From NCBI GenBank assembly GCA_943704415.1, contig CALSCO010002108.1:1-26194 (forward strand): DNA of 26,194 nt. Reading direction: 5' to 3'. Made by a program: the position numbers and the translations under genes. Positions 218 to 26,009 of this stretch are shown here, piece by piece. Source of the stretch: Parvularia atlantis. Lineage: Eukaryota > Opisthokonta > Rotosphaerida. The notes beneath the pieces are model-generated. The model did no database searches and was not told where the DNA came from. It saw nothing but the letters and a program-made list of their open reading frames with translations. The number at the start of each line of letters is the position of its first letter. Position 1 is the stretch's first letter.

Positions 218-3200
218 ATGGCGCAGAAGGTGCGCCAGCTCGACGGCTCGACGGCTCGACGGCTCGACGGCTCGACGGCTGCTGCGCCTCTCACTACGCG
301 CTTGCGCGTGGGGCGCAGGAGGCGATCGTGGTGTGCCTCGACGTGGGGCGGACGATGTTCGACCCGAAGACGCAGGGCGAGTCGCGCGCGCACACCAAGC
401 TCTACGTGCGCGTCGGATGCACGGCGATCAAAGGCGCGCGCACGCGCTGACGGAGAGGGCGACGCGGCGCGCAGGAGGCGCAGCAGGCGCTCAGCCTGTT
501 CCTGCAGCACAAGATCGCCGACGGGCGACGGACGGAGCAGGTCGGGCTGGTGCTGTTTGGCTGCGACGGTGTGCGGGGTGCGACAGATGCGCTGCAACGG
601 CTGAGGCGACGGGCGCGCGCGCGGCGCAGAGAGCAAGAACAGCCTCAACTACCCACACGTGAGCGTGCAGTACACGATCCAGATGGCCACCGTCGAGATG
701 GTGCGCTTTATCGAGAACGACGTCAAGGGGTGCAACAACGACTCAGACTGGATCGACGCGCTGCTCGTGCGCGCCTGCGAGACCTGCTGCGTGTCGGGCC
801 TGACGCCGCGCCCCCAGGTCGCCATGGATATGCTCGAGAACCACCCGGCGCACATGGCCGGGTGGAGGACGTACGCGCGGCGCGTGATCCTCGTGACCGA
901 CGCCGGCTGCGACGTCAACAAGGACAGCGTCGACGTGATTCTGGGGGAGCTCAAGGACAAGGCGTACAAGCTGCAGATCTTGTGCGCCGTCGCACAACAC
1001 CGCGAACGCGCCGCCTGCTCACGCTCCTGTGCGCAGCGGGCTCGACTTTGACGACCCAGACTACCCGATCAAGACCCTCCCACACAAGTCGGACGTGCAG
1101 GTGCGCGCGCGGTGGCCAGCGTGCGTTGTTGGCAGCGGCCTGACGCGCCTGGCCAGCTGCGCAACGAGGAACTGCTGCAGAGCTGGGCCGCGGGCAAGGT
1201 CGACGACATGGACGTCATCCCGATGACCGACGCGCTGCAGCGCCTAAGGTTCGCGCGCGCCCAGACGACGCACCGCCGCGGCTGACGGTGCCGGCACGCA
1301 GCTGGTTCCGCGCGCGCGCCATCCGCCAGACGTCGCTCTACCGCGGCTTTCTCGAGGTCGCGGGCGACGCGCTGCGCATCCCCGTGCACCTCTTTACCAA
1401 GACCGCCGAGGCGAAGCCGGTCTGCCCCGTGCCTACGTCCCCGCGCTCACACTCACGCACACACGCACGCGCGCACGCCCCGAGCAGAAGTCGTTCAAGC
1501 GCGTGTTTGTCGAGGACGACGGCACACCCGTCGACGTGACCATGGAGCGCACATACAAGCGCGTCGAGGACGACGAGCCGGTCGAGCGCGACGACCTCGT
1601 CAAGGCGTACAAGGTGTGGCAGGCGTTGTGGCGGGCGTCTCGGCCTCACGCGCCGCCGCGGCCGCTGCGCACGCAGTACGGGCGCACGTACGTCCCATTT
1701 GATCGCGCGGACCAGGCGCTCGAGTTTAACGCGGAGAAGTGCCTGATGGTCAGCGGCTTTGTGCGGTCGGACGAGGTGCGTGCATGTCACCGTCACGCGT
1801 AACGTGCGCTGAGTCGTGTGCGCGCCAGGTGCCCTTGACGCGCTTTCTGGGCTCGACGTCGAGCGGGACAGTCGAGGTCGACCCGCAGCCGAACGACCCG
1901 AACGCGGCGTACGCGCTCTCGGCGATGGTGCACGCGCTCTACGAGCTGGACCGCGTGGCCCTCGTGCGCTACAAGAAGAACAACGGCGCGCGCAGCACGA
2001 CCGCCGGTCGGACTGGGCCACTGATGCGTGCGCGCGCGGTCGAGCAGGCAAGGGTGGGCCGATCGTGGGTGTGCTCACACCGCACATCACACCCAAACGC
2101 GAGTGCCTGTTCTTCACGCGTCTGCCGTTTGCCGAGGACATCCGCGAGTACACGTTTGTGTCGCTCGAGAAGTCGCGGTGCGCACTCGCATAACCTGTGT
2201 GTATGCTTGTTGTTTTGATCCGCTTTGTGCGCCCCTTGCGATCAGGCCGACGAACGCACAGCAGGCCGCGATGGACGCGTTTGTCGACAGCCTCGACCTC
2301 ATGACGGCAGCGCGCGACCCGAGCGGGTACGCACGGCGCGCGTGCCGTGTACCGCGCACTGAGCAGCGCGCAGCGACCCGATGGAGGACCTCAAGCCGTC
2401 CAACACGCCCAACGTCGTGCTGCACCGCATCCTCGAGGCGATCAAGTGCCGCGCGATCTACAAGAACTCGCGCCCGCTGCCGCTCACGTGCGCGGCTGCG
2501 CGGTTTCGTCGTGCGACGCGCCTCACCCGCCTTGACAGCCAGCCCGCGCTGGACAAGGTGCTCGAGCGCAACCGGCAGCTGTGGCACGGCGCAGCGGACA
2601 CCGTCGCCAAGGCACGCCCTGCCTGCTCCTGCGCCTCACTGTGACCGCTAAGTCGCACGCGATCTTGCAGCTCGAGTCGTCGTTCAAGCTGACCAAGACC
2701 GAAGCCGCAGCCAAGAAGGACGCGCAGCAGCAGTGGGCCGCGGCCAAGGTCGAGGGTGCGCTCCGCCTGCACCTTGTCTGCTTGTATGCGCTCGCTGACG
2801 CTCGTCGCCAGACGACGCCAAGAAGCCGCAGCTCGACGGCGAGATGGACCTCGCCAAGCTGGCCGACCAAGTGCTGCCTCGCCACTCGCGCTCTGCGAGA
2901 CACTGACAACACAACGCAGGCAGTCGACACGGTCGGCTCGATGGACCCTGTGGGAGACTTCCGGCGGATCATCGGGCAGCGCAACGCGGACCGGGTCGCG
3001 TCGGGTGCGGCGCCCAGAGTGCTGCGTGCGCGGCGGTGGCTAACGGTCATGCGCAGCGATGGACCAGCTCGCGAGCATCGTCAAGACGCTCGTGACCAAT
3101 AGCTTTGGCGACGCGAACTTTGACAAGGCGCTGGTGCGTGCCTGGCGGCCGTTGGCGTGTGCGCAGGTTCACGGCCGTGCGCGCGCACATAGGAGGCCGT

Positions 3201-3633
3201 GCAAGAGCTGCGCAAGGCGGCCATCGTCGAGGAGGAGTCGGCGCGGTTCAACAACTTGCTCACGACGCTCAAGGGCGCGCCGTGGACCAGGCCGAGCGCC
3301 GTGCCGTGGACTAAGCCCAACGGCGCGCGCTTCTGGGACCGGCTCGTGCGGGCCAACGTCACGCTGATCTCGTCCGACGAGGCCGACGACAGCAGTGTGC
3401 CGCCGCAGGCGTCGCAGGACGTGCGTGCCGCGGCGATACCGGTGCGGTGCTCAGACGCCCCCGCGCGCGCGCGCGGCCGCGCAGTTCATCAAAACCGACA
3501 GCACGCCGCGCGCGTCCGTCAAGATGGACTCGGTGCCGACGGCCGACAGCCTGGTGCGCGGCGGCGCGTGCCGGTTGGGGCCCGCGTGGTGCTGATGCGC
3601 CCGCGCCCCGCGCAGCTGGACGAGCTGGAGTGA
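218..3633 (+). CDS. XRCC5: Ku80 (XRCC5), DNA end-binding subunit for non-homologous end joining, 22 exons
   Basis: Ku80 pairs with Ku70 to form a ring that threads onto broken DNA ends in the nucleus and recruits the ligation machinery. My exons are 218-229, 319-405, 475-568, 630-766, 818-981, 1037-1100, 1157-1248, 1302-1419, 1488-1613, 1677-1775, 1829-2006, 2048-2177, 2246-2326, 2374-2487, 2539-2611, 2671-2755, 2812-2870, 2920-3004, 3057-3133, 3193-3420, 3485-3553 and 3616-3633. They sum to 2190 nt, or 729 aa; human Ku80 has 732. The N-terminal vWA domain opens with EAIVVCLDVGRTM and includes VGLVLFG, DALLVAMDML and RRVILVTD. The beta-barrel core has AIRQTSLYRG, YGRTYVPFDR and MDAFVDSLDLM. 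A helical C-terminal domain follows (about residues 580-700). The protein ends in ADSLLDELE, like the hydrophobic-acidic tail that binds DNA-PKcs in animals (inference). Intron 15 (2612-2670) has a GC donor. The coding part of exon 1 is only MAQK. The next gene starts 32 bp after the stop. Confidence 0.93.
238..277 (+). repeat. Five tandem copies of an 8-bp unit in Ku80 intron 1
   Basis: The unit GCTCGACG occurs five times without a change, filling almost half of the 89-nt first intron (230-318). This is the longest intron of the gene. Its excess length over the roughly 55-nt norm is about that of the repeat, so recent expansion is likely. Confidence 0.9.
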
Positions 3634-3665
3634 GAAAGGGGAGTGAGTGTTGTTCTCCGGTGCAG

Positions 3666-6071
3666 ATGTCGATGTCGTCCACCAGGCTGCCGCGCGGCAT
3701 CTGCGTCGTGTGCTTCGCGGCCGAGGGCGAGGACGACGCGGGTGCGGCCCCCGCTGCGCCGCTGCGCCTGCTGCCGTGCTTGCACGTGACGTGCGCGCTG
3801 TGCGTGCGCGACCTGGGCGAGCGCGGGCCGGACGTGGCGCTGGCGTGCCTCGAGTGCGGCGAGCGGTGTGCGCGGGAATGCGTGGCTCTGGATGCGTTCT
3901 CACGGCGCGGCGCACCGGGCGCAGCTTCGATACCGCCAGCCTCGTCGACTACGTCTCGCCGCGCGACGTCACGCTGCTGCAGGGCCGCGGCGCGCCCGAT
4001 CCATGGCTGGCGCTGGACGCGGGCGGCGCGGCGGTCGCGGACGATGCGAAGGACGCAACGCCGACGGCCTGTGCGGCCCACGCGCGCCCCTGGACCGCCT
4101 TCTGCCTCGACTGCGACAAGCTGCAGTGCGCCGCCTGCGTCGACGGCGACCGCCCCGGCCACGTCTGGAAGCGTGTGCTGCTGGCGGACCTGCCCGGGCG
4201 CGCGGCCGAGCTGCGCCGCGTTCGCGCGCGCGTCGAGCCGCGCCTGGCCGAGATCAGCGCCGCGATCGCGCAGCTGCGCACCGTTGTGCAGCCGCTCAAC
4301 GCGCGCTACGTCCCGCTCGCGCACGAGATTGACGAGTGCTTCGACCGCTGCCTGCGCCACGTCCGCAACCGCGGCCGCCTCACGCTCAGCCCGGCGCTCG
4401 CCTCGCGCTTTGGCGTCGTCGGCTCGATCGCCCGGCGCTTCTCGGTCTCGGCGACGTCGCGCGCGTCAGTGTCGGCCGCGGCCGCGGCAGCAGCGGCAGC
4501 AGCAGCATCGGGCGAGAGCACGGATGAGGAGGACGAGCAGCCCACGGCTCCGCCGACGCCCTCCGCGCCCAAGGCGCTCTCGATGCGCCGCTCGGCCGCG
4601 CGCCTCGTCAGTCGCCTGTTTGGCGTGGATTTGTCGCGCGCGAGCGGCACGAGCAGCAGCGGCGACATATCGGCGCCGCGAGAGTCGCTCCCGGACCGCG
4701 TGTCCGTGCCGACGGCCGACCTCAACGGCGACCGCGTGACACAGCCGCCGCGGCTCACGCGCGAGCAGCGGCACCAGCGGCAGGAGGAGCGCGCTCGCGA
4801 GATTGAGGCGTGGCGCGACGACCTCAAGCGCACGGCGCGCCGCACCCTCGACGGCGACATTAAGACGATCACGCTGCAGGTCGAGGGCCTCGACCTGGTT
4901 CAGCAGCAGTACACGCAGGCGATCGAGCTGTGCCAGGTGGTCCAGGACCTGCTGGCGCTGCCACAGAAGGAGGTGGCCGTGCGCTGCGCGCTGCGGCTGG
5001 AGGCCGTTGTCGTCGCGCGCCTCGAGGCGCGTGCGCGCCTGCCTGCCTGCCTCACAGCGCGTGCCAACACACGTTTGCATCGCACAGCACTTTGGCGCGC
5101 TCAAGCCGTGCCTTGAGCCGCTCGTGGATGACACGCTGCGCTTCACGCGCTTCCTCGAGGCCGGTGCCGACCCCATGGTCTCGTCGCTCGACTTTATCGG
5201 CCGGCTCGAGCGCCCGCGCGACCTCTCGGCGTTCAAGAAGGTGGCCTTGCCGAGCGCGATCATCGAGGGCACGGCCAACACGCGCGGCCCGCGCGACACG
5301 CGCGACACGCTCATGTTCAACCGGCCGTACGCGCTCGCCTGCAACCCATGGGGCCAGCTCGTCGTAGCCGACTACGGTGCCGACGCGGTCGTCGTCGTCA
5401 CGCCCGGCGGCGACCCGCGCCTGCGCATCCGCGTCGATAGCCCGCTCTCGGTCGCTGTGGGCGACCTGGGGCACATCTGGGTGGCCAACACCAACAACGA
5501 GGTGCGCTGCTACACCGCCGCCGGCGCCCTCGTCCGCTGCCTGCGCGTCAACGGCGTGTGCCGCATCACGATCGCCCCAACCAACGGCGACCTCATCCTC
5601 GCCACGCTCGACTACGTCGCCGCGATCACGTCCGCGGGCGACGTGCGCTGGAAGACCGACGCGGCCGACGGCGCGACCTACGGCTTCGTGTGTACGCCCA
5701 CGGGCGAGCTCCTGACGGGCAGCTGGCGCAAGCAGGTGCGCCGTCCGCCGCTTGCCGCGTCTAGCAAAACTGATCGCGCCGTCCAGTCGCGATGCCTGTT
5801 GTCGCTCGCCGATGGCCACCTGCTGCGCCACGTCGGCACCAGCCTCTTCCCCGCGCCGACCGAGGTCGCGGCCACGTCGCGCTTCTTCGTCGCGTCCGAC
5901 CCGGCCTCGCATTCGGTCGCGCTCTTCACCCACGCCGGCCGGCGCGTGCATGCCTGGGGCGCATTTGGCAGCCAGCCGGGCGAGTTCAACGGGCCGGGCT
6001 CGGTCGCGGTGCTGCACGACGACCGCGTGGCCGTGGCCGACGTCAACAACGCGCGCATCCAGCTGTTCTGA
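3666..6071 (+). CDS. TRIM-NHL-like protein: RING finger, B-box, coiled coil, NHL beta-propeller
   Basis: Probably an E3 ubiquitin ligase with a C-terminal propeller for RNA or protein binding, as in animal TRIM-NHL proteins (family knowledge). Exons are 3666-3865, 3925-5026, 5088-5735 and 5787-6071, giving 744 aa. A C3HC4 RING lies at residues 13-66 (CVVC, then CLHVTCALC, then CLEC). A B-box follows at about 130-170 (CAAH, FCLDC, CAAC). Next come a coiled coil, an 11-alanine run with an acidic patch, and a second charged coiled coil (about 355-430). The last 260 residues hold NHL-type repeats such as FNRPYALACNPWGQLVVADYG and FNGPGSVAVLHDDRVAVADVN. I split the first of these by eye and did not count blades. 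The second intron (5027-5087) fits the frame only with a GC donor. The third (51 nt) has no stop and is a multiple of three, so it could be retained. The ATG at 3672 is an alternative start. Confidence 0.85.
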
Positions 6072-6158
6072 GGGGCTGCGACGCACGAGCGGCTACCAAC
6101 CTTTGGCAGAACTCACCCAAGGTGCCGCGGCGCGGCGTTGTTAACACAATCACAGGAT

Positions 6159-8970
6159 TTATGCAGTCGGCCAAACCTTTTTCGCCCCCCTCGACCCATG
6201 GCCCAGCTCGGCGTCACAGTCGCTAATCGCCTGGCCGAACGTGCCCTCGAACCAGCTGATCACTTGCGCCACGTCGGCTGCGCTCGCTGGCCCGCGGTCA
6301 ACGGCGTCCTGACAGAGCGTGCGCGCAAGGCGTCGCAGGTGCTCGGCGACCTTTGGTGGACGCAGCGGGCCGCTGGAGCTGTCGGCCGCGGCGTGCGCTT
6401 GCCTGCTGAGCATGAGTTGCAGCAGCTCGCGCAGGTCGGCCAGGCCGTAGCCGTCAATGGCTCGGGTGAGCGCCTTGAGCTCGACGATGCGCACGGTGTT
6501 CCGCGCGGCTGATGCAGTCAGCACTGTCAGCGTTACAGTCATGCAGGCGGCGGTGTGCTTGTGCGCACCCTCGCGGAAGCACACGTCAAAGCCGTTGAGC
6601 ACGAGGTTGCGATCCGACACAAACTTGACGCTCGCGCCGGCGGCCATTGTCGGCAGGCGCTCGAGCAGGGCCCAGGCGTCCGGTCCACCGACAGCGCTGC
6701 GCCGAGTGTGAGCACACGACGGGCGCAACAGACAGCTGCGCACTCGGGGTCGAGAAAGACAGGCGGGTCCATGGCCTCCCGTGGCAGGGCGTGCGTCTGC
6801 GTCAGTTCGTGCAGCGTGTGCATCTCCCGAAGTCTGCGGTGTGCCTTCAGTCGCAGTCGGCACCGTGGCAGCGCACGCACCGCGTCAGCGGCAGGATGTA
6901 CACCGCGCCGTTCTCGACCATGACGGCCAGGTGTGGGTGGGTGCGCAGCGGCGCAAAGACGCGGGCTGATGTATCGTGTGCAGTGACGGCCATGCGCAGA
7001 CGCTCCACGCTGAACGGCACGTGCAGCTCCTCGTTTGCGACTGGCGCGAGCTCGAGCGGCTGCATCTCGCCAGCCGGGCGGACGGGCAGCGGCACTGCGC
7101 GTGTCGTTCGCGCCTGCAGGTAGCCGAGGATGGAGCCCGCGTCCGCGATCTGCGGTCGTGTTCGCTTGGCGGCCGGTGCAGCGTCCGGTGCAGCGTCCGT
7201 GGCAGGGCCGGGCGAGGGCCGTTTGCTAGCCTCGGCAGGTGCGTCTTGCGCGACCAGATCGGGCCCGGACCCCGGCGGCGTCGGCAGCGGGGCAGCGGTC
7301 GCGGGTGAGCCGAAGTCGTCCGCCGCACGCGTCCTGCGCTCAGTGATCAACCCACAGCGAGCCACACGCGGGCACGAGCGGCACGCACTGTGCTGTGACG
7401 AGCGAGCCGTTCGGCTGCGAGCTGGTGGAAGGCTGCGACGAGCTCGCCAGCACGGGCGCAAGGGGCGTTGCCGGCAGCGGGTAGAGCTGGTCGAGCAGGT
7501 GCTGCACGTGCTGCGCCAGGACGGCGGGGTACTGGAACAGGATCGACGTCTTGTTGGGGTCGAGGTTGACTGCGCGGGGCGTCAGCAAGTGCGCGACGCG
7601 GCCTCGCAGCCGGCGCACTGTCGCACTCGGCCTGGTCGAGCGTGAGCGCGAGATAGATGAACGGGTAGCGTCGCGACGGGCCGGCCCCGTCGCGCAGAGC
7701 GGCGTGCTGGCGCGGCGAGCGACGTCAGACGCCATGGAGCAGGCGTACGCCGGTCGTGCCTGGCTAAAGTGGCTCACGACAGTCGCGACCAGGTCCTTGG
7801 GCATGACAGGCCGGCGGTTGACGTAGACGAAGCAGCGCGTGTTCTTGCGGCGCGCGACAACGGCCAAGTCGGCGTTGGGCCGCGGCAGGAATCCCTCGAT
7901 GGCGAGCGCCGCGTCGCCGTCGGCGCGCCAGCTGACACGCTGCAGCTGCCCGGCCAGCTCTGCGCCAAACACGCTCAAGATCGCCTCCTGCACGGCCGTG
8001 ACAGTGAGCACGCTCCGCGTCGTGCTGCGGCGAGCGCGAGCCCGGCACCGCGGCGTCGAGTGCGGCGGGCTTGTTGAGGACGATCTGCTGGTCGATCTTG
8101 ACGAGCATGCGGCAGGCCGGCCGGGCGAGCGCCAGGGCGAGGGCCACGTCCTCGATCGCCTTCTCCTCGGCCTTGATGCTGGCCAGTATGCGCTGCAGAA
8201 GCGTGTGCGTGAGTCGGCTGCGGCCGCACGTGCAAGCGGTGCACGCACCTGGCGCCGCACGGGCACGCCCGCGAACAGCTTGCGCACGATGACCGTCGTG
8301 CCGATGCCGCGCGGCGAGGTCTCGGAGCGGACGACGGCGCCGTCGGCGCGGAACGTGACCGTGGTGCCGACCTGGCGCGGTGTGCACGGTGCAGTGTGAG
8401 CGCGCACGTCAGCGGATGGACGCGAGAGCGCACCGTCTCGCTGCTCGTGCGGCTCGCGATCTGCACCTGCGCGAGCTGGCAGAGCGAGCTGACGGCCTCG
8501 CCTGCGCATCTGTCAGGACGTGCACGCACACACGTGCACGCACGACGCACCGCGGAAGCCGTACGTGGCGATGCGCTCGAGGTCGTCGGCCGTGCGCAGC
8601 TTGGACGTGTGGTGGCGCAGGCCGATGCGGCGCAGGTCGGCGGGCACGATGCCGCTGCCGTTGTCGGCGATCACGAGCAGGTCCAGGCCGCACTGCTCTA
8701 GGCGCATGTCGATGCTCGTCGCGCCCGCGTCGAGCGCGTTCCTTGCGGGCGCGTGTGCGTCGATCAGCAGTGGTGCGAACGCGCGCGCGCGCGCGACACG
8801 GCGCACTCGATCAGCTCCTTGACGGCCGCGTGCACCGACGTGATCACCTGCGACGCGCGCATGTGTGTGTGTGTGTGTGTGGCGGTCGGTGGTGGCGCGC
8901 AAGGCGTGGCACGCACCTGGCCGCTCGTGATGCGCCGCGCGACGTCGGACGGGAGCGCCGCCAACGACAT
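6159..8970 (-). CDS. PMS1: PMS1-type MutL homologue, DNA mismatch repair, 13 exons
   Basis: A MutL-family ATPase expected to pair with MLH1 in the nucleus. Exons on the minus strand start at 8970, 8847, 8741, 8501, 8371, 8192, 7987, 7706, 7569, 7333, 6833, 6696 and 6508, totalling 706 aa. GHKL ATPase motifs are intact: ENALDAGA (about residues 32-39), DNGSGI, TYGFRGEAVSSLCQLA and GIGTTVIVRKLF. The transducer domain has VYVNRRPVMPKDLV and INLDPNKTSILFQYP. A low-complexity linker leads to a short C-terminal domain with LNGFDVCF and YGLADLRELLQLML, which resembles the end of human PMS1 rather than PMS2. I see no DQHA(X)2E metal-binding endonuclease motif, so it is probably non-nucleolytic like human PMS1. 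The protein is shorter than human PMS1 (932 aa) and lacks an HMG box. Linker exon boundaries are the least certain. It converges on the TRIM-NHL gene, with 87 bp between stops. Confidence 0.9.
8862..8880. repeat. TG dinucleotide microsatellite in PMS1 intron 1
   Basis: About nine and a half TG units (CA on the sense strand of PMS1) lie inside the first intron, which spans 8916-8848. They sit about 15 nt upstream of the 3' splice site. Confidence 0.9.
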
Positions 8971-9064
8971 CGCTGTGGTGGCGCTACCTTTGCAACTGAC
9001 TGCGCGCGCGCACTGACCTGACCACACACACTCACTGAGGGGAAGCGATGCTCACTACAGGCGC

Positions 9065-12100: not shown

Positions 12101-12168
12101 CTTGCCTGGGTGCTCACTGCACGTCACGCAAGTGTAATTTGGCTATTTTGGCTAAATGCTGTCTGTAC

Positions 12169-13482
12169 TCAGCTGCGCTGCACCGCGAGCGGCGAGTCGC
12201 CCGCGACGGTGTAGGCCTTGGCGCCGACCGTGCCGACCTTGCCCTGCGACCCGCGGCGTGAGGGGGCCGGGCGGGCAGGTGGCAGTGCGGCGGCGCACCG
12301 TCGTGCCAAACGTCGTCCACACGCGGATCGGCTCGCTCGTCTCCTCGAGCGCGGCCCAGGTGATGCCGTTGGCCTTGCGCAGACTGACCTCGGTCTTGAC
12401 CGTGAGGAACGTGAACGAGCTCTCATCGGGGCTGATTGGCTGCGGGCCACGCGCCGGGTCAGTACGCGCTCGCGGCCCGGCAGCACGTGCCTGGAACAGC
12501 TTGAACTCGCGCCCAAAGACCGCCCCGCTCTCAAACACAAGGCGCACGGTCATCTGCACGGCACGCGTAAGCTGCGCGCGTCTCCTCACATGGCGTCTCC
12601 GCGCGCGCGCACCGCCGACGGCGCAAACGTGACCGTCGACGCGGCCTGGTCGAGCTTCTTCGCAAAGAACGAGATAATGACGTGCGTCTGCGTCTGGTAC
12701 CAGTCGAACCGGCAGTCGACCGTCTCGGCGGCAGCGGCGGTCACGGCCACCGCGGCGCCCAGGTAGCGGTGCCGTCCCGTCTTGCAGCCGGGGATCTTGA
12801 GGAACTCGGCAAACTCGAGCACCTTGCGCGCGCAGCACGACCAGCCCTTCGAGCCCTCGTGGAAGATCGGCACGCCGCTGTGGAAGCGGCACGCGCCCGC
12901 GCCCTCAGCCTCCGTATCGGCGCCCTTCTTGTGGCTGCAGCCGTTGCGCTTGCACGGCGCGCCCTCGACCACGACGGCGTCCGGGGGGTCGTCCTCGGGC
13001 TGAGCCGGCGCAGGTGCGGGTGCCGGTGCGGGTGCCGGTGCGGGCGCAGGTGCCGGTGTGCTGCCAGCGACCGAGGTGGTGGCGGCGGCCATCGCGGCGC
13101 CGGCGAGCTCGTTGGCCGACTTGGCCGGCGCGGGCATCGCCTGGGCCTGGCTCGTGTGCAGGCCGGGCGTGCAGCCGGGCAGGGCCATGAACTCGTCAAA
13201 CTCGGTGACGCGCTTCTTGCAGCAGCTCCACCCCTTGAGCCCTGCCGCACAGAGCCCGCCGCGTCAGCCGGTGCGCGCGCGCGTGCCACACGCCGCCGCA
13301 TGCACCTTCGTGGAAAACCGGCTGGTGCGCGCACGCGTGCCGCGTCAGCCACGTGCGCCGGCCACGCACGGCGCACGCACCGCGCCCGGGTGGAACATGC
13401 ACTCCATGCGCTCGTCCTCGTCGTCCAGCGTCGGATCGAACGCTTTCCCGCAGCCGCGGTTCGTGCACGTCGCCCTCGACAT
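12169..13482 (-). CDS. CHORDC1: CHORD-containing, CS-domain co-chaperone (CHORDC1/RAR1-SGT1 type)
   Basis: An HSP90 co-chaperone with two zinc-binding CHORD domains and a CS domain. Exons are 13482-13381, 13321-13306, 13241-12613, 12553-12491, 12439-12299 and 12243-12169, totalling 341 aa (human 332). CHORD-I begins at residue 5 (CTNRGCGKAFDP), continues through the 16-nt second exon (PVFHE), then GLKGWSCCKKRVTEFDEF and GCTPGLHTSQ. A Pro-Ala repeat linker follows. CHORD-II has CKRNGCSHKKG, CRFHSGVPIFHEGSKGWSCC and GCKTGRH. The CS domain has CRFDWYQTQTHVIISFFAKK, MTVRLVFESG and VKTEVSLRKANGITWAALEE. The intron at 12490-12440 uses a GC donor (CAG|GCACGT). It is divergent from the carbonyl reductase gene, with 85 bp between start codons. 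Confidence 0.93.
13009..13060 (-). repeat. 12-bp tandem repeat coding a Pro-Ala linker between the CHORD domains
   Basis: Near-identical GGTGCGGGTGCC-type units (plus strand) encode an alternating Ala-Pro run of about 18 residues in frame. Such Ala-Pro runs form stiff extended spacers. A similar run occurs in UPF3 of this window. Confidence 0.85.
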
Positions 13483-13567
13483 GTTGCGCGCGGGCACAAG
13501 AAGCAGCAGGAAAGCTGACAAGCGGCCACGCCTGACGTCTCATCCGTTTGACGACGCCTTCGTCGCG
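13483..13567. promoter_or_regulatory. 85-bp divergent promoter of the CHORD protein and carbonyl reductase genes
   Basis: The only non-coding DNA between two divergent start codons, so it must hold at least the core promoters or leaders of both genes. It contains a TGACGTC palindrome at 13533-13539, which resembles a cAMP-response-element core. One such short match could be chance. No TATA box is visible. Confidence 0.5.
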
Positions 13568-14697
13568 ATGCTGACCAAACGCGTCGCGCTAGTGACGGGC
13601 GCCAACAAGGCGCGGCAGCGCACGGCCGGCGCACGGTATCGCTCGGCACGCGCTGATGCTGGTGCCGCCCCGCGCAGGGCATCGGTTGGCACATCTGCGA
13701 CCAGCTCCTGCGCGGCGACCGCGAGTTGACCGTCGTCGTGGCCGCGCGCGACGTCGGCCGCGGCACGGCGGCTCAGCAGCAGCTGGCGCAGGCGCACGGC
13801 GCCGAGCGGGTCGAATTCCGCGCGCTCGACATCGACCAGCCGGCGAGGTGCGGCGCCGTCGCGTTAGGCACGGGCGCGGTGCGTCTGACGCGCGTCAGCA
13901 GCATCCGCGACGCGGCCGTGTGGGTCCGCGAGCGCTTTGGCGGGCTCGATGTCCTCGTCAACAACGCGGCGATCGCGTGGAAGGGCGACGCGTTCGACGA
14001 GAACGTGCGCGGCGCAGCGGGTGTAGCGCATGCGGCCGGCTGAGCGCCGCGGCACGCGCAGGTCGCGACGACGACGCTCGGCTGCAACTTTTTCGGAACG
14101 ATGCACATGCTCGAGGCGTTCCTGCCGCTGATGCGCGACCACGGCCGCGTCGTCAACGTGGCGTCGATGGCCGGTCGCGTCGGCTCGTACGGCAAGGCGC
14201 TGCAGGCGCGCTTCCTAGATCCGGCCCTGACTCCGGCCGGCGTCGCGGCGCTGATGGAGGACTTCAAAGCCGCGGTCAAGAACGGCACGTACGCCGCCGA
14301 CGGCTGGCCGCGCAGCACTTACGGCGTCTCGAAGGCGCGCGCGTGTGCGTGCGCGCGGTGGCCCTGCCGAGGCTGACGGCCAGCCGCGCCAGGCCGGCGT
14401 GATTGCGCTCACCAAGGCGCTCGCGCGGCAGTACACGCAGGGCGTGCTGGGCGACGTGACGCGTGCGCAAGGCCTGCACATCAACTGTTGCTGCCCTGGT
14501 GCGCGCGGCCGCGGCATTCGGGTGCACACGCTGACGCCTGCGGCCCAGGCTACTGCCAGACCGACATGTCGAGCCGGCGCGGCACGCGCTCCGCGGCCGA
14601 GGGCGCCGACACGCCCGTCTGGCTCGCGCTCACCCCGGAGGACGAGTGTCCGCAGGGCGGCTTCCTGCAGGACCGGCGCGAGCTCGCCTGGGCGTGA
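13568..14697 (+). CDS. Carbonyl reductase-like short-chain dehydrogenase (CBR1 type)
   Basis: A cytosolic NADPH-dependent reductase of the classical SDR superfamily that reduces carbonyl compounds such as quinones and aldehydes. Exons are 13568-13609, 13678-13847, 13899-14004, 14062-14334, 14393-14498 and 14549-14697, giving 281 aa (human CBR1 277). The Rossmann glycine motif TGANKGIGW (residues 10-18) is formed exactly across intron 1. LDVLVNNAAIAWKG, RVVNVASMAGRV, the catalytic YGVSK, and NCCCPGYCQTDM follow. The long insert before the active-site tyrosine (ending in KNGTYAADGWP) is typical of carbonyl reductases. Introns 1 (13610-13677) and 3 (14335-14392) both have GC donors after AAG. 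For intron 3 an alternative acceptor at 14383 also keeps the frame. Confidence 0.92.
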
Positions 14698-16518: not shown

Positions 16519-16613
16519 CCGCAGAAGCAGTCTTGGCCCTAACACAAACAAAGACAAAGCAAAGCAAACGCAATGAATGTCCAAGCGGTGCCGGCATGCG
16601 GCGGCGTCCGATA

Positions 16614-17672: not shown

Positions 17673-19264
17673 GTCTGTGGTCAAGGGCGCCGCGACGGTG
17701 GCCACGAACGCCGCCTTCCAGCGCTCGCGCTCGGAGCTGGTGCCGCGCACGGCGCCGGCCGCCGGCGGCAGCGCGGGCAGCGCGACGGCCGCGATCGCCC
17801 TGCCGCGCCCGCGCCTCACGCGCGCCGTCAAGACGAAGGCCGTCGTGCGCCGCCTGCCGCCCACGCTCGACGAGGACGCGTTCCGCGCGAGCATCGCGCC
17901 GTACGCGCAGCAGCTGACGTACTTGTGCTTCTACCCGGGCCGCGTGACGTGCGCGCTGCCGCTGCCGCTCGTATCGCGGAGGGGGGACGCGGCTCACACC
18001 CACGCCGCAGCAAGGGCAACGACGTCGTCCTCGGCCGCGCATCGCTCGCGTTCGGCGCATTCGAGCAGCTTGTGGCGTTCGCGCGCGCGTACGACGGGCA
18101 CGTCTTCCTGGACGCGCGGGGTGCGACGTTGTCGTGCTGCGCTGCGCCATCGATCAGCCGCTCAGCCGCGCGCACGCACACACACAGGCAACGAGTCGCG
18201 CGCGCTCGTCGAACCTGCGCTCTTCCAGCGCGTGCCCAAGCCGCGCGCACGGCTCACGACCGACGCGTGCGCCGGCACGATCAGCGCAGGCACGCACACG
18301 CTGCGCTCTTGCCTCCTCTAGCTCAACGCTGCAGCACGCAAAACAGACGACGACTTTAAGGCGTTTGTCAAGGCGCGCGAGGAGGGCGGGCCGGCCGCGT
18401 CCGTCGAGGCCGACGCCCTGCTGGAGCGCGCCGAGCAGGAGCGCCACGAGGGTGCGGCGCGCGCGCACGCACGCATGGACGACTGCATCTGACGCCCCGC
18501 TGTGCAGCCGCGATGCGTGGCGAGCGCGCGTCGCAGAGCACGCCGCTGATCGACTACCTGCGCGAGCTCCAGCACGGCACCAAGGTGTGCATCTGCCGGC
18601 CACTCGCGGCCCATGCCGTGCTGATGCGCGCAGCAGAGCCGCGCCGGCAAGGGCAAGGCGGCAGTCGAGAGCAGGCCGACCGCGACGCGCAAGAAAGAGT
18701 GCGCACAAACAGCCTTTGCTGTGCGCGTCGTAATCGTGCGCCAACAGCCGCAAGTCAGCCGCCGCCGCCTCGGCCGCCGCTGCTGCCTCCGCCGCTGCGG
18801 ACAGCCCGGGCAAGACGCAGGATGTGCGCGCGCGAGCTGCTGCCCCGGCCGAGCCCAAGCCCAAGCCCCCAAAGGACAGCAAGACCAAGAAGGAACGCAA
18901 ATCACCACAGGTCAAGGTGCAGATCCTGTCGCGCACCACCGTGCCGGACGCCGAGCCCGCACCTGCACCGGCGCCTGCACCCGCACCGGCGCCTGTGCCT
19001 GAACCCGTCGCTGCGACAGCCGCGTCATCGTCGGCCGCGCCAGCGCCAGCGCCTGGCAAGGGCAAGGGGCGCGGCCAGCCGCCGCCGGCCAAGAGCGCGT
19101 TCGTGTACGTGCGCCAGAGCCCCGCAGCGAGCGCCGAGCCAGCGCCGCCACCCGCCGAGACATCGATCGCCGCACCGAGCGTCGGGCGTGGCCGGGGTGC
19201 ACCAGTGGCACCCCAAGCAGGGGCGGGCCGGGGCCGGGGCCGAGGCGCCCCGCCGGACAGCTGA
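17671..19264 (+). CDS. UPF3: UPF3, nonsense-mediated mRNA decay factor, 7 exons
   Basis: UPF3 bridges UPF2 and the exon junction complex in nonsense-mediated decay and shuttles between nucleus and cytoplasm. Exons are 17671-17948, 18011-18120, 18188-18289, 18335-18451, 18508-18584, 18634-18698 and 18748-19264, giving 421 aa. The Smg4/UPF3 RNP-type domain (about residues 48-150) has KTKAVVRRLPPTLDEDAFR, AFGAFEQLVAFARAYDGHVF, ALVEPALFQRVPKPR and DDDFKAFV. The conserved STPLIDYLREL follows at about 210. The tail is rich in Ala and Ala-Pro, with KVQILSR, then KSAFVYVRQSP, which may be an exon-junction-complex-binding motif (tentative), and ends in RG repeats. Intron 3 (18290-18334) has a GC donor (CAG|GCACGC). 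An in-frame stop at 18490 lies inside intron 4. It converges on the next gene with 18 bp between stops. Confidence 0.9.
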
Positions 19265-19282
19265 GCATTGCGTGCGTGGCCA

Positions 19283-20028
19283 TCATGTGTTCAGTGCAAA
19301 CAGCTCAGGCGGGAAGTCCTCGCGGATCTCGCAGGCAATGCCGTCGGCCTCGAGCCTGTACAGCCGCCACAGGGCGCCGTCGGCCGTCTTGCCGACGTCG
19401 AGCAGGGTGAACTCAGGAAGGAGGTGCAGGTACCTGCTCTCGCGCTCAGTTGGTTGGCTGCAGCGTGCGCGCGCGGCAACGTCTCACGGCGCACCGGAAC
19501 AGCTGCCCGATGCCGACGGCGCCGCTCTCGACGAGCTCGCGGGTGCGCGCGCTGTTGATCGTGATGGACGAGCGCGCAGTGCAGAACACCTGGCAGCGTG
19601 CTCAGTCACCGCAGCCCCGGAGGGGAAAGGCGTCCGCGTGCGCACCCGTCCGAGGCACGACAGGTGCACGAGCCGATCAAAGGTCTCGGCGCCGATGCGC
19701 TCGTTGCGCAGCACGGTCACGTCGACGCGGGCGTTGTAGTACGCGCTGCAACACGCAGTCGCCTCAGCGCCCCGTCTGTTCGCCTCGTCCCGCCCCCTGC
19801 GCGGCACCTGATGATGCGCTGCAGGTTGCCGTTCGCGGTGAGCACGATGCGCTCGAGCGGCGCAAAGTGCTCTGGCAGATGCACGGCCGTCTCCTTGAGC
19901 GACCTGCGCACGCACGCTAAGCTACCTATCTCCTCTCCTCCTGCGCCCCGTGGGTGGTGGTGCACGCACATCACGTCGCCAAAGTGGTCCGGGATGCCCG
20001 GCGCGGGCGCGGGCGCGTCCGGCTGCAT
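19283..20028 (-). CDS. Chorismate-lyase-like (UTRA/DUF98 fold) protein, 166 aa
   Basis: Exons are 20028-19970, 19903-19808, 19745-19646, 19589-19495 and 19433-19283, all in phase. The order of motifs fits the chorismate lyase/UTRA ligand-binding fold: LERIVLTANGNLQRIISAYY, ARVDVTVLRNE, LGRVFCTARSSITI, LVESGAVGIGQLFRYL and GALWRLYRLEADGIACEI. Bacterial members split chorismate to 4-hydroxybenzoate or sense small ligands. In this protein I cannot say whether it is an enzyme. No targeting signal is visible, and the first 17 residues are Pro-Ala-rich. The start at 20028 is the first ATG in frame; upstream codons in frame have only GTG. It is divergent from ALADIN with 32 bp between start codons. 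Confidence 0.7.
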
Positions 20029-20060
20029 GGCCCCCACGTCTGTCACTCTTTCGAACGTCG
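20029..20060. promoter_or_regulatory. 32-bp space between two divergent start codons
   Basis: This is all the DNA between the start of the chorismate-lyase-like gene and that of ALADIN. It includes TTCGAA at 20050-20055. Core promoter elements of each gene must lie here or inside the partner's first exon or intron. The CT repeat in ALADIN intron 1 is 45 bp away and could contribute. Confidence 0.45.
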
Positions 20061-20104
20061 ATGGAAAGGGTGACAGCGTGTGAGGTCGACGGCCGGCTGC
20101 GTGC

Positions 20105-20142
<38 letters not shown>

Positions 20143-22170
20143 CGCCCTCGCTGCGCGCGCGCGATCGCCGACCGCCCCGTGCTCGCTGCGGCGCAGTCAC
20201 GCGCCTGCGCATCGGCGAGCCCGCGCTCGATTCGGACGCCGAGCGCGCCGTGCGCCGTGCCGGCGCGGTCTGGTACCGCACCGAGCATGGCCTGCCTGCG
20301 GACCATGTGGCGCTGACCGACGCGCGGTGCGGCGCCTGCCTGTGCGACGGGCGCCGTTTACGGTGCATCGGGCAGGCTGCGCGACTCGGCGCTGCTGCCG
20401 AGCAAGACGAGCGTGGTGTTGCTGGAGGACGGCGCCGACGCGCTCGCCAAGCTGCTCAACCGCGCGACGGTGGCCGTGCTCGCGACGCTGGCCGCGCTGC
20501 CGGTAGACATCGCCTGCCCCTCGCCCACCCCGCGCACGCTCACTGCTCGACGTGCGCAGTGGCCGTGGCGCCCGCAGACCCTCCCGCCCATGTACGGCGT
20601 GATCCGCGCGCTCGCGCTACACCCGAGCCGCCCGCTGCTCGCCGTCGCGAGCCCGCACGTGCGCTGCTGGCAGCGATGCAGGCGGCCGCCGACCGTGCGA
20701 TGCAGGAGATCTTTGTGTACAGCCTCGAGCGGCAGGTGTGGCACCCGTACAGCCTCGTGTCGACGCGACAGGTGCGGCGGCCCGGGCGGTAGCGGCCCAC
20801 ATTTCCCCCCTCCCCTTCTGAGCACGAAATGCGCAGGTCGGCATCACGTGCCTGGCGTGGCGGCCTCTGGTGCGCGACCAGCTAGCCGTCGGCTCGCAGC
20901 TGGGCGCGGTCGTGTGGACGTTCGACTTTGGGCAGCTCAACCGCGGTATGCGAACGGTCCGCGCGCCACAGCATCACTCACGCAGCATGCGCGCTTGCAG
21001 ACAGGTGCTACGGCGCGAACCCGACGTGCCGCGAGATCGACATGCTGGCGCCGCGCGGCAGCGACCCGCACGTAACGGCGCTCGCTTGGGACCCGTGCGG
21101 GCGGTGCGCGCCAAGCACCCCTTGTTCCGCGCGAGCTGACGCTGTGGCAGACGGATCGCCGTGGCGTCACAGCGTGCGCACTCGCTCGTCGTGCACGACC
21201 TCATCAGCCGCACCTCGACCGCGCTGCCGTCGTGGGGCGGCTACTTCACCAGCCTGCGCTGGGGCGGCGGCAGTGGGCGCGGCGACGGCGAGGGCGACAG
21301 CGACGGCGCCTTCCTCGCGGCTGCGTCGGTGTATGCGCGCTGCGCTTGTGCTGCCACGGCCCCGCGGCGCTTGCTGACGGTCGACGCGCGGCTGCAGCGA
21401 CGGCACGCTGCGTGTGTGGACGACGGCGACGTGGACGCTGCAGCGCTGGCGGCTGTCGTCGCGTCCGCTCACGGTGCGCCGCAGCTGCCGCGACGCGGGG
21501 TGCGCTCACACGTGCGACGGCACCAGAGCGTCGCGCTGGACTGGAGCGGCACCAAGGCCATGGTCGCGGCGCACGGCGAGACCGGCGTGCACCTCGTCGA
21601 CCTGAGCAGCCGCAGCACGACCAACGTCGCCTCGGTGTCGCTCGCGGACGTACTTGGACCGGTGCGGGCTTGTACCGTGCGCTTGTGGCGCGCGCTCATT
21701 GCCGACGACGAGCAGGGCACGATTCGCGAGCTCGGCGACGTGAGTGCGCTGGCGTGGGCGAGCGAGCACGACCGCGTCACGGTCTCATTTACACGGTCGG
21801 CGCGCGTGCTCGTGTGCTGGGTGCAGCTGCTACCGGCGTTCCGTCTCATGCCGCTGTGCGTGTGTGCGCCAGCACGTGGCGGGCGCGGGTGCTGATGTCA
21901 CACCCGCGTCGGGCAGTGGCTTTGCAGAGGGCGAGGGCGACGTGACGACGTGCATGGCGGTGGGCAGCATGATCGGCGCGTCCGGGACCGTGCTGGCCTG
22001 CGTGCGTCGACCACGGTGCACGTTTTGCCGCCGTGCTCACTCGGCACACACGCGCGTGCGTGCAGGCGCACGAGACGGGCGAACTCAACATCACGCCGAT
22101 GTACTTTGTGTCGTCGCGCTCTGGCGCGGCCGACGTCCTGCGCGACTGGGGCTACCCCGCCCTGTTTTAG
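20061..22170 (+). CDS. AAAS: ALADIN (AAAS), WD-repeat nucleoporin, 13 exons
   Basis: ALADIN sits in the cytoplasmic and nuclear faces of the nuclear pore, bound through NDC1 in animals. Exons start at 20061, 20197, 20376, 20560, 20706, 20837, 21001, 21151, 21398, 21527, 21716, 21917 and 22066; in total 466 aa (human 546). WD-type blades read YGVIRALALHPSRPLLAVAS with EIFVYSLERQVW, then GITCLAWRPLVRDQLAVGSQ with GAVVWTFDF, DPHVTALAWDPCGRRIAVAS with SLVVHDLIS, GYFTSLRWGG, DGTLRVWTTATWTLQRW, and SVALDWSGTKAMVAAH. The C-terminal ITPMYFVSS matches the IPLYFVNA of human ALADIN, after which it ends in DWGYPALF. Exons 11 and 12 (about 21716-22001) are the weakest part of the model. The N-terminal 130 residues are poorly conserved. 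It converges on the methyltransferase with 78 bp between stops. Confidence 0.85.
20106..20139 (+). repeat. (TC)17 microsatellite in ALADIN intron 1
   Basis: A perfect TC run begins 5 bases after the donor GTGCG of intron 1 (20101-20196). It lies just after the first coding exon and close to a 32-bp divergent promoter. A shorter CT run stands upstream of the LCAT-like gene. Confidence 0.95.
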
Positions 22171-22248
22171 ACTGAGCCTGTCCATTTTGGGGGAAGGGAG
22201 GGACGGACGGGGGCCAATCACACAAATCGAAGCAAACCAAGTGCCCGC

Positions 22249-23490
22249 TCACTGCGCCTTGTGAATAAAGTAGTAGGCCACGGCCGCGATCACGACGGCC
22301 GACAGTAGCACCTGCGCGCGCGCGCGCGAGGCGTTTTGCGGTTAGGGCGTGCACGCCTCGCAGTGCAGTGCGCGCCCGGGGCCGCACCAGGCCTGTCGGG
22401 TCGCCACGCGGCTTCTTGGGCGGACGGCCGCCGGGCTTGACGCAGACGGCCTGCAGGCCGAACGGGAGGCCGCGGTCGATGTAGCTCAGGTTGTTGAGCA
22501 GCCACTTGTCTTTGACCTCGCCGTGCTTCTTCATGTGGATTAGCGCGATGCCGCGCATGTGCGCCGCGGCCAGGTCGGTGAGGTCGTCGTACGACTCGAC
22601 CTGTGCTGCTGTGTGAGCGCGGTGTGCGCGGCGTCGCGCCCGTGGCCGCGGCGCACCTTGAAGCCCGCGGCGTTGAGGTCGGCGAGGTAGCGGTCGGCGT
22701 TGCAGTCGTCCATCGCGAGGAACTGCAGGTCGGCGTTGAACTTGTCGATGGCCTGGCGAGCGGGCGCGCGCGTCAGGTGTCCGCCCAGCGGCGTGCAGGG
22801 CCGCGCAGGGCACCTTGGCGTCGTCCTTGGGGAAGTCCGGGCCGGGGATCCAGTGGTGCATGAACACGAGCTGGCCGCCGGGCTTGAGCACGCGCAGCAG
22901 CTCCTTGAAGATGAGCACGCGCTGCTCGTGGCTGAACGCGTCCGGGTCCTGGCCGTAGACGCAGTCAAATGTGCCATCCTTGAACGGGAGCTCGAAGGCG
23001 TTGGCCGTGACGAAGCGCACGCGGTCCTGCACGCCCTCGCGTGCCGCCAGCTCGCCCGCGCGCTGCACGGCCGGCGCGACGATGTCGACGCCGGTGATGC
23101 GCGCCTGCGGCTGCAGCTTGGCGTAGTGGCACGCGGTCGATCCCTGCGTCCGCCCGCCGTCGCACGTTGAGCCGCACGCGCCGCCGACCGCGCCGGCCGC
23201 GCACCTCGCCGCAGCACAAATCCAGCAGGTGCTGCCCCGCGCGGATCTCGAGCCGCAGCGTCTTGGCCAGGCGCCGCGTCACGCGCCAGCCGCCCGCGTG
23301 CAGCTGCTCGCGCGGCTCGGGCCAGTTGGCCGAGAGGCGGTCGTGGAACGCGTCGCCGTAGTCCTAGCCGTGGCCACTCAGCGCGCGACGGCGGCAGCGC
23401 GCAGCGGCACGGCACGGCACGGCGCACCACGTAGTGCTCCCAGCCAACCTTCTTGGCTTCCGTCGGCGCGGCACTTCCCTCAGAAGCCAT
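22249..23490 (-). CDS. Class I SAM-dependent methyltransferase with a C-terminal membrane tail
   Basis: Exons are 23490-23428, 23363-23205, 23143-22814, 22752-22657, 22600-22388 and 22311-22249, giving 307 aa. The SAM motif DLCCGEGSTACHYA is formed across intron 2. Motif II is ITGVDIVAPAV, the post-II region is FELPFKDGTFDCVYGQDPDA, and motif III is LLRVLKPGGQLVFMHHW, all typical of the Methyltransf_11 group that acts on small molecules, sterols or phosphobases. Substrate unknown. The last exon adds VLLSAVVIAAVAYYFIHKAQ after a basic Pro-Lys stretch (GGRPPKKPRG), which looks like a tail anchor into a membrane facing the cytosol. An in-frame ATG at 23583 would add 31 residues; I prefer 23490 because the upstream part has no conserved feature. 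It follows the LCAT-like gene on the same strand, 128 bp away. Confidence 0.82.
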
Positions 23491-23618
23491 GTGCGGCTGC
23501 ACGGCTGGTGCAATGCGCTGCCAGTGCGGCACGTGTGAGTCGTCGGGCACGTGCGCGCGGGTTGTGCGAGGGCGAGCGAGCATGGGGAGGCACACAAAAA
23601 CAAAAAAAACGACTCGAT

Positions 23619-26009
23619 TCAGAGGATCGCACAGCAGCAGCGCGTCGTCCGCTCGGCCTGAGCCAACTTGCTCTCGACCGCAGCCGGCTTGGTCTCGGTC
23701 TCGGTCTCGGTCTCCGAGTCAACCGGCGCAGCTGGCTTGCTCTCCGCCTTGACATCGGTCTTGGTCTTGGTCTCGGCCTCGATCTCGGTCTCAGCAGCAC
23801 CTGCAGCAGCACCCGCACCCTCGGCACCACCCTCACCGCCAGCACCGCCAGCACCAGCAGCGGGCGGCTCGCTCGACTCGACCGTCGCCTGCACCGCCTT
23901 GGCCTCGAGCGCCGCGTCGGCCCGCATCACCGCGCGCAGCTGCTTGAACGCCGCGGCGTCGCCCGCCAGCCGTGCCTCGAACGCGTCCACGCTCGCAGAC
24001 TCGACCACGGCCGCCTGCAGCGCCGGATGCGCCGCCAGCGCAACGGGCGCCGCGCGGTTGCGTGTGTAGAGCGCGTGCAGCTGGTCGTCCTGCGAGCCCA
24101 TGCCCTTGCCTATCATGATCAATGCGTGCGGCTTGGCCGGCTTGACCTTGAGTCGGTACGCCGACGGCACGCCGCTGTCGCGCGACTGCTGCTCGAGCTC
24201 GGCGATGTTGCGCCACAGCTCGGCCTGCGCGTGCGCGTCCGCGTCCGCCGGGGCGGTGCCGCGCAGGCGCTTGAGCGTCTGGGCGCGCATGGGCTTCAGG
24301 ACCTTGGCCTCGACCGTCGGCTTGGCCGAGGCTGTGCGCTGCTGCACGAGCGCGTGAAGGTCGACCTGGCTGTCCTTGTGCGTCTCGAGCGTCCAGTCGA
24401 TGCGCGCGACGCACTCGGCCAGCGTGTGCGCGCCCAGGTCGCCGGGCGTGGGCACCGCCGAAGGCGTCAGCACGCGGTATACCGCGTCAAGGATCTTGTC
24501 GCAGGTGTAGATATTGCCGTGGTCGGTGTCGAGCTCGCCTAGGTCGAAGCCGAAAAAATCGGCGCCGGGCAGGTACGTCGACTGGAGCAGGACCGAGTTG
24601 TCGCCGTTGAGCCACTTGCCGTCGGGTGCGGTGCCGGACGCTGTCTGGAAGAGGTACTTGTTCTCGCTCGCGCTGAACGAGGCCGAGACCATCGTGCCCT
24701 GGTTCACGCCCGCAAACACCGTCACGCGGCCCTTGTACGGCGAGGCGACGTCTGCCGCCAGCCACTGGCGGTAGCTCTCGGCGTCGGCGTGGAGCGCGCT
24801 GCCGGCGCTGAGGAGCACGTCACGGAACGCGAGCGACTGGTCGTTTGTCAGCTGGCCCGGCGCGAAGAGCGACTCGCCGTGGCTGTCGTCCCGGAAGTGC
24901 CACACGGGCGCGCGCACACCCACGGGCGCGCCGATCGCCTGCAGCGCCGCGTCCCAGACAGCGTTGGGCGCGCACATGAGCTGGCTCGCGCCCGTGCACT
25001 TGGCCGAGAGCTTCTTCATGGCCTCGCCGCTGCAGTCCTCAACGTGGTCGAAGATGCTGCTCAGGCCGTAGCCCGTCTCGAACGTGTACAGCGGCTGCAC
25101 TGCGCCGCGGAACGGCGGCACGACGAAGAGGACGTGGGCGACGCGCTCGGCGAAGGCGGCGTCGCGGCCGTAGCGGCCGAGCATGTCGAGCGTGACGAGG
25201 CCGCCCATGCTGTGCGTGAGGATGCTGAGCCGCGCGGCCGGGCGCTGGCGCAGGACGTCGCTCAGGACGAGGAACAGCCGTGCCGAGTTGAGGCGGACGT
25301 CCTCGCGCCTGCGAGTGCCCGCTTGTCGTGATCGCGCTCCGCCCCCTCGCCCCCCACGTCGCCACGCACCAGTCGTACACGAAGAAACTCGTGCGCGGAG
25401 CGAAGCGCGCGTCGCTCGCGAGCTTGGCGTACGGCGCCTCGACGTTCTGGCCGAGGCACTTGAAGTCGACGACCTTGGGCGCGGTCAGGAAGACGTGCTC
25501 GCCCGCGTCAACGTAGCCGGCCACGACGCGCTGGGCCGCGGGCACGTCGGCGGGCGGCTGCAGCTGCAGCGCCGAGACCTCCATGCCCTGCATGCCCTCC
25601 TCGACGATCAGGTCGAAGAAGTTGAGCTGCGCCGACGGGCATCAGACGGCGCCTTATCATGCGGATCGCTCCCGCGCGGGCGCATTGTGACGCACCCACA
25701 GCACCCAGCCGTCGCCCGTCTCGCGCGGCGACGATAGCTCGCTGCCCATGATGCCGTGCAGGTGCACAAACAGCGCCTCGCCCGCGAGACCGTCGATCTT
25801 GCGCACGGCATCGGCCACAAAGCGCTCGCGCAGCCGGCGGTACACGTCGCGCTCCCATCCCGTGGCGCTCTGCGCGCGGCCGGCAGCGCGGTCAGGCATC
25901 GCAGAGGAGGGGGACGACGCGCTGCCGCCCCCGCGGCGCCGCGTGCCTGCAGCGCGTAGCTCTCGGCCGCGGCCACGGCGGCCTCGGCGGCGTCCAACGG
26001 CGAGCCCAT
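23619..26009 (-). CDS. LCAT-like alpha/beta hydrolase (lipase/acyltransferase) with a C-terminal CaaX box
   Basis: Related to lecithin:cholesterol acyltransferase and phospholipase proteins that move or cut acyl chains of phospholipids. Exons are 26009-25947, 25869-25696, 25626-25370 and 25308-23619, giving 727 aa. Family signatures are VHLHGIMGSELS (about residues 54-65), the nucleophile elbow THSMGGLV (serine near 198), PPFRGAVQPLYTFETGYG, an acidic residue in NGDNSV and a histidine in DTDHGNIYTCD, which complete a plausible triad. The last 100 residues are Ala-, Glu- and Thr-rich with repeated TETETE units. The protein ends in RTTRCCCAIL. CAIL is a CaaX box whose final Leu favours geranylgeranylation, with neighbouring cysteines open to palmitoylation (inference). 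No signal peptide is visible, so it should face the cytosol, unlike secreted LCAT. Intron 1 (25946-25870) has a GC donor. An in-frame ATG at 26048 is an alternative start. Confidence 0.83.
23690..23791 (-). repeat. Hexamer repeats coding Thr-Glu and Lys-Thr runs in the lipase tail
   Basis: Two blocks (about 23690-23716 and 23757-23791) of GGTCTC/GGTCTT-type hexamers on the plus strand encode alternating Glu-Thr and Lys-Thr in the tail before the CaaX box. The tail is probably a flexible tether. Confidence 0.8.

Follow-up and report, generated by a model that had tools for sequence, protein, structure and literature searches.

This stretch of DNA from Parvularia atlantis, a contig of 26,194 nucleotides (hereafter, the window), raises the question of whether an unusual number of its introns begin with GC instead of GT and, if so, which features of the donor site go with this change. 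The window is the whole of contig C500, part of a genome that comprises 616 contigs and 16.25 Mb, with a G+C content of about 70% (0.67-0.73 across the pieces examined). The earlier note on this sequence had called seven GC-AG introns in the window, set their share against the roughly 1 percent of most eukaryotes, and proposed that relaxed pairing with U1 small nuclear RNA (snRNA) is offset by a strong AG/GNRCG donor context, where the slash marks the exon-intron border. We confirm that the excess of GC-AG introns is real and was correctly spotted. By gene models covering 286 kb, GC accounts for 61 of the 1028 GT and GC donors (5.9%, 95% interval 4.7-7.6), that is, about one intron in seventeen and far above 1%. 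Furthermore, C at the second intron position (+2) depends strongly on the neighboring donor letters. All introns and donors discussed here are predictions from the sequence and from gene models.

The counts were obtained with a two-strand gene finder, the coding, intron and splice-site models of which were self-trained. Training began from the frames flanking the seven claimed introns, for coding sequence, and from a typed GTGCG start, for donors; start counts were taken from a preliminary version that permitted exons of 1-3 bases. From then on, GT introns alone served to train the donor and acceptor models. Under the conservative prior, GT was assigned 0.85, and the 15 remaining dinucleotides were given 0.01 apiece. 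The training set of 226 kb, consisting of the window and another 200 kb, has a coding fraction of 0.70 and yielded 850 introns with a median length of 56 bases, or roughly one for every 186 coding bases; these included 750 GT introns, 50 GC introns and 50 introns that begin with one of the other 14 dinucleotides, the largest such class being CT with 11. In the held-out set of six contigs (60 kb), there were 241 introns, namely, 217 GT, 11 GC and 13 others, so that GC contributed 11 of 228 GT and GC donors. Overall, 967 of the 1091 introns begin with GT, and the 61 that begin with GC compare with 63 for the 14 other dinucleotides together (mean 4.5, maximum 12). Subtraction of the mean noise class reduces the GC share to 5.5%, and subtraction of the largest one, to 4.8%. 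The genome-wide count of GC donors suggested in the earlier note was thus carried out for 286 kb of the 16.25 Mb, on gene models rather than on reads.

The seven claimed donors are all present as described. Read directly from the letters, each has the sequence AG/GCRCG, an AG stands at each of the 3' ends originally proposed, and splicing yields an open frame at all seven sites. When left unspliced, the Ku80 intron, the second carbonyl reductase intron and the UPF3 intron introduce a stop in the upstream frame, and those of the TRIM-NHL gene, the lipase gene and the first carbonyl reductase intron change the frame. The CHORD intron, which is 51 bases long, can be read through in frame with no stop if retained, so that support for its removal comes from homology and splice signals alone. 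Five of the seven introns are located in regions alignable to solved homologues and, when the predicted proteins were aligned to PDB sequences, four junctions were gapless and the fifth had the same length in the homologues. Both GC junctions of the carbonyl reductase align without gaps to carbonyl reductases 3 and 1, restoring the TGANK^GIGW motif as previously claimed (the caret marks the junction), and there is no gap between Ku80 and XRCC5 at residue 519. In the case of the CHORD protein, 89 residues of the CS region match 89 residues of SGT1 across the junction, as given in the table row of the match list. Only the 3' end proposed for the UPF3 intron, 18334, is off, by 12 bases, and would insert four residues compared to UPF3B and UPF3A; most likely, the predicted intron ends at 18346.

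Donors that are strong in their other letters tolerate C at +2. Among the 1028 donors, GC is found in 26 of 34 with the AG/GNA context, in 26 of 237 with AG/GNG, and in 9 of 740 (1.2%) without the preceding AG; the remaining 17 are AG/GT donors with C or T at +3. This dependence bears out the strong AG/GNRCG context originally described. In the training set, the letters flanking the dinucleotide are nearer to the consensus in GC introns than in GT introns, both at -2 (A in 43 of 50 vs 252 of 750) and at -1 (G in 48 of 50 vs 545 of 750), with a weak difference at +6 (T in 24 of 50 vs 240 of 750, p 0.03). A at +3 is present in 20 of the 50 GC introns compared with 28 of the 750 GT introns (p 7e-14), despite the penalty for A imposed by the model learned from GT introns, and is the strongest single predictor of GC (logit 3.0). 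The held-out GC introns display the same features, with AG before the donor in 10 of 11 and A at +3 in 7 of 11. The ratio of G to A at +3 is 906:32 with GT and 34:27 with GC, compared with 3.3:1 in intron interiors. The effect of A at +3 thus reverses its sign with the base at +2, A being rare with T and common with C, and this is the least explained part of the context rule. The C/(C+T) fraction in intron interiors is 0.68, inside the interval for the AG/GNA class (0.60-0.88).

Other features of these introns were compared as well. The CTNAC branch motif, which is outside the gene-finder model, was found in 37 of 50 GC introns and 448 of 750 GT introns, compared with 13 of 50 introns with other dinucleotides and 8% of shuffled GT introns. 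Phase 0 was assigned to 44 of 50 GC introns, 343 of 750 GT introns and 147 of the 186 AG/GT introns, among which just 7 were in phase 1. The phase-0 excess of GC introns is mostly due to the need for A at -2, given that AG then closes a complete codon; presumably, A is rare at third codon positions in this genome. The typical U12-type donor is (G/A)TATCC, and the 50 listed GC introns depart from this pattern: their +3 letter is G or A, and their +4 letter is C or T.

Following the suggestion of the earlier note to inspect the 5' end of U1 snRNA, we found that the sole U1 gene above the cut-off retains the standard first 11 letters, AUACUUACCUG. As far as this copy is concerned, altered U1 is accordingly rejected as the cause of the GC excess; scoring covered 41 of 149 first-look candidates, and a very divergent copy could escape such a search. 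The proposed relaxation of U1 pairing fits the context dependence only in part. In a fixed-register U1 model, where the context of each site was scored as if T were present at +2, GC occurs at 57 of the 455 sites whose context pairs at -5 kcal/mol or more strongly and at 4 of 573 weaker ones, and at none of the 8 strongest-pairing sites; the model separates the sites just roughly and gives no credit for A at +3.

We favor, with a probability of about 0.8, the explanation that these are ordinary U2-type introns in which C at +2 comes from mutation bias and survives mainly in strong donors. In a genome with about 70% G+C, T at donor position +2 would recurrently mutate to C, and this C would persist mainly in donors that follow an exon ending in AG and that carry A at +3, G at +5 and, preferably, T at +6. 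In the AG/GNA class, the ratio of C to T at +2 is 26:8, close to the 68:32 of intron interiors, so that selection for T in this context seems to be nearly gone. Such introns would still be removed by the spliceosome, and mutation bias combined with relaxed selection may account for their origin. The explanation coincides with the scenario preferred for mammals, in which GC is fixed neutrally where the donor context is strong (PMC2490688), now with numbers from a GC-rich genome. In mammals, the remaining donor letters adhere closer to the consensus when GC replaces GT (PMC2490688); a stronger remaining donor alongside GC is common to both cases, but here +4 is C.

Several observations weigh against this explanation or the counts behind it. 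High G+C content alone is insufficient, given that RCC299 has a GC-AG share of 2.7% at 64.1% G+C (PMC3033335), and the mammalian GT-to-GC changes show no clear dependence on regional G+C in the cited sections of PMC2490688. The U1 duplex gains nothing from A at +3 beside a mismatch at +2 (-4.5 for both GCACG and GCGCG), and GC donors pair with U1 worse than GT donors (median -3.2 vs -4.2). The phase-0 excess persists after matching for AG (41 of 42 GC introns vs 147 of 186, p 0.003). The number of GC calls depends on the prior; at a prior of 0.07, GC reaches 105 calls but CG reaches 70, CT 56 and CC 55. The finder was seeded from the frames of the claimed introns and the typed GTGCG, and the held-out set alone is free of this influence; in that set, the branch-motif contrast seen in training is gone, with CTNAC in 0.69 of the 13 other introns vs 0.60 for GT (0.73 for GC).

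Could the GC calls be mostly artefacts of the gene models, with GCGCG being common in GC-rich coding sequence? Loosening the prior does raise both GC and the control dinucleotides. With a prior of 0.07 for one extra dinucleotide, the 105 GC calls came with a score gain of 803, and eight controls produced 26-70 calls with gains of 29-313; because the controls rise too, the GC count at this prior is inflated, and we therefore use the conservative one. When all 16 priors were made equal and the learned context was kept, GC had 86 calls and the next dinucleotide, CG, had 40; with the donor context turned off, CG (91) overtook GC (74), making the raw GC count unremarkable. Even with donor scoring off, however, RCG emerged at +3 to +5 in 34 of 74 GC calls, compared with 40 of 465 calls for the 14 remaining dinucleotides and 437 of 539 GT calls. 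Together with the wide margin of GC over the largest noise class in the conservative run, the branch motif shared with GT introns and the junctions preserved in homologues, this makes an artefact highly improbable. Slightly more improbable still is the arrival of GC donors with mobile introns (introners), such as IE-A1 of Micromonas, 53% of which have GC donors, likewise in the AG/GYGCGT form (PMC3879977): in an all-against-all comparison of the 850 introns, the 25 listed of 127 match rows were GT-GT pairs, mostly shorter than 35 bases, with no GC intron among them. That the GC donors mark regulated introns, subject to retention or alternative donor choice and kept by selection rather than drift, appears unlikely as well, although in human, nematode and Arabidopsis an enrichment of GC donors has been reported for genes with alternative splicing (PMC2490688). 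Here, GC introns show no clustering within genes (they fall in 42 genes vs 43.5 +- 2.8 under shuffled labels), and their lengths are divisible by three in 12 of 61 cases, compared with 309 of 967 for GT introns, so that an excess of such lengths as a sign of retained GC introns is rejected.

The coupling between C at +2 and A at +3 might also be read not at U1 but upon transfer of the donor to U6 and Prp8, with A at +3 repairing a contact that is lost without T at +2. A at +3 has the largest effect of any letter and yields zero gain in the U1 duplex, where it is isolated between mismatches at +2 and +4, and the shift of the G:A ratio away from that of intron interiors, in opposite directions for GT and GC, points the same way. 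Pseudouridines and U1C, however, are outside the pairing model and could lend A at +3 a value at U1, and we consider the U6/Prp8 reading tentative, if the most plausible of the alternatives. A further peculiarity is C at +4, which is present in 863 of 967 GT and 57 of 61 GC donors (920 of 1028). In humans, +4 is generally A and is faced by the N6-methyladenosine at U6 position 43 (m6A43; PMC10581693). In the present genome, a METTL16 homologue is encoded on contig C232 (it matches the U6 A43 methyltransferase best among PDB sequences, E 2.5e-48), SNRNP27K is present, LUC7 matches are found on two contigs, and the U6 gene has the standard ACAGAGA box; loss of METTL16 or SNRNP27K as the cause of C at +4 is rejected because both were found. 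According to work cited in PMC4671708, G at +3 is permitted only if positions +4 to +6 are paired with U1, whereas here G at +3 accompanies C at +4, a mismatch. That two donor rules are unusual in this organism, the sign change at +3 pointing to U6/Prp8 and C at +4 being read by some further feature, seems doubtful, more so than the U6/Prp8 reading of +3 taken by itself but less so than regulation.

The only U6 snRNA gene found (L004:1501-1662, corresponding to C142:8820-8981, + strand) has a peculiarity of its own: its catalytic core is interrupted by 48 additional bases between GATTA and GCATGG. Exactly at its two ends, this insert lacks a good donor or acceptor, and it contains GTGCGAGCC, which we take to resemble an RNA polymerase III B box; U6 of S. 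pombe carries an intron in this region. The gene for the METTL16 homologue (L025:1117-2418, on C232, - strand) is predicted to be intronless, and its neighbors have introns.

Within the window, the conservative prior gives seven GC introns, comprising five of those originally claimed and two additional ones, in Ku80 (1986-2047) and in a PMS2/MutL-like gene (7759-7707). When GC was admitted alongside GT (the GT/GC prior), the finder called 108 introns, 96 with GT, 11 with GC and one with AC, and recovered all seven claimed donors. In the conservative run, the donor of the first carbonyl reductase intron was placed 6 bases downstream, and the UPF3 intron was given another donor (18263) and the 3' end at 18334.

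GC-AG introns predicted in the window (coordinates on the forward strand; TRIM-NHL and lipase are names given in the earlier note)
Gene or call	Position	Strand	Donor	Called under	Basis or remark
Ku80	2612..2670	+	AAG/GCACGC	both priors	gapless junction at residue 519 vs PDB Ku80 (XRCC5)
TRIM-NHL	5027..5087	+	GAG/GCGCGT	both priors	letters
CHORD-CS	12440..12490	-	CAG/GCACGT	both priors	SGT1 match over the CS region
Carbonyl reductase, intron 1	13610..13677	+	AAG/GCGCGG	GT/GC prior	TGANK^GIGW gapless
Carbonyl reductase, intron 2	14335..14392	+	AAG/GCGCGC	both priors	YGVSK^AG gapless
UPF3	18290..18346	+	CAG/GCACGC	GT/GC prior	gapless vs UPF3B, UPF3A
Lipase	25870..25946	-	CAG/GCACGC	both priors	letters
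PMS2/MutL-like, not in the original seven	7707..7759	-	CAG/GCACGA	both priors	
Ku80, possible	1986..2047	+	ACG/GCGCGC, no preceding AG	both priors	one-residue gap at junction
Low-confidence call	20512..20577	+	GCCTG	GT/GC prior only	donor 20530 in the conservative run
Low-confidence call near the 3' end of the MutL-like gene	6278..6326	-		GT/GC prior only	donor 6335 in the conservative run

The predicted TRIM-NHL intron is flanked by exons of 1102 and 648 bases, and that of the PMS2/MutL-like gene lies inside the stretch aligned to PMS2, with gaps near the junction. Elsewhere in the window, at 22252-26009 (- strand), the finder fused a lipase-like and a methyltransferase-like gene (identified by eye) into a single gene of 1010 residues, joined through an AC-AG call at 23645-23497; these are probably two genes. 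A run of CT repeats occupies positions 20106-20139. It falls within the first intron predicted for a gene with its start at 20061, next to which a divergent gene starts at 20028.

Compared with other genomes, the share of 5.9% exceeds both the 1.3% reported over 61 species (PMC3033335) and the 0.8% of human coding introns (PMC7242645), and GT-AG accounts for 98.3, 98.7 and 97.9% of the introns in animals, fungi and plants, respectively (PMC7072748). The original comparison with about 1 percent in most eukaryotes therefore holds as far as the excess is concerned but omits GC-rich genomes with equal or higher shares, such as Aureococcus anophagefferens (39.6%), Micromonas pusilla (22.2%) and Chlorella sp. 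(7.7%); RCC299 stands lower, at 2.7% (Iwata and Gotoh 2011, PMC3033335). In its cited sections, that study relates the GC-AG shares to G+C content and leaves the cause open; it reports an unchanged U1 end in Aureococcus and both Micromonas. High G+C content (69.5% in Aureococcus and 65.9% in M. pusilla), the GC-AG excess and standard U1 are common to these two algae and the present genome; what is added here is the dependence of +2 on the neighboring letters. We found no match to the chlorophyll-binding family in this genome, and a photosynthetic alga is rejected as its source; the organism is probably not photosynthetic. Micromonas also resembles it in the donor, AG/GTGCGT or AG/GYGCGT, and in the branch motif, CTGAC (Verhelst et al. 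2013, PMC3879977), but the introners of Micromonas are rich in GC donors, unlike the intron matches described above. Ostreococcus and Micromonas share C at +4 (PMC2483917, PMC3879977), and changed snRNAs have been named as worth exploring in Ostreococcus (PMC2483917). In the present genome, the U1 end and the U6 box that were found are unchanged.

An excess of GC-AG introns in GC-rich genomes is already known, and it is the context rule and the behavior of +3 and +4 that are worth following; among the open papers searched, we found no publication that describes the reversal of sign at +3 or a neutral +2 ratio in GC-rich genomes. For annotation, the consequence is immediate: 42 of 126 gene models with introns contain at least one GC donor, and a finder limited to GT would break these. 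In a single genome with standard U1, the GC share spans 1.2% to 76% depending on the donor context, which makes the trade-off between +2 and its neighbors measurable. The origin of the published GC-AG excesses has been called an enigma (the cited sections of PMC3033335), and the letter-by-letter dependence described here makes the underlying rule testable.

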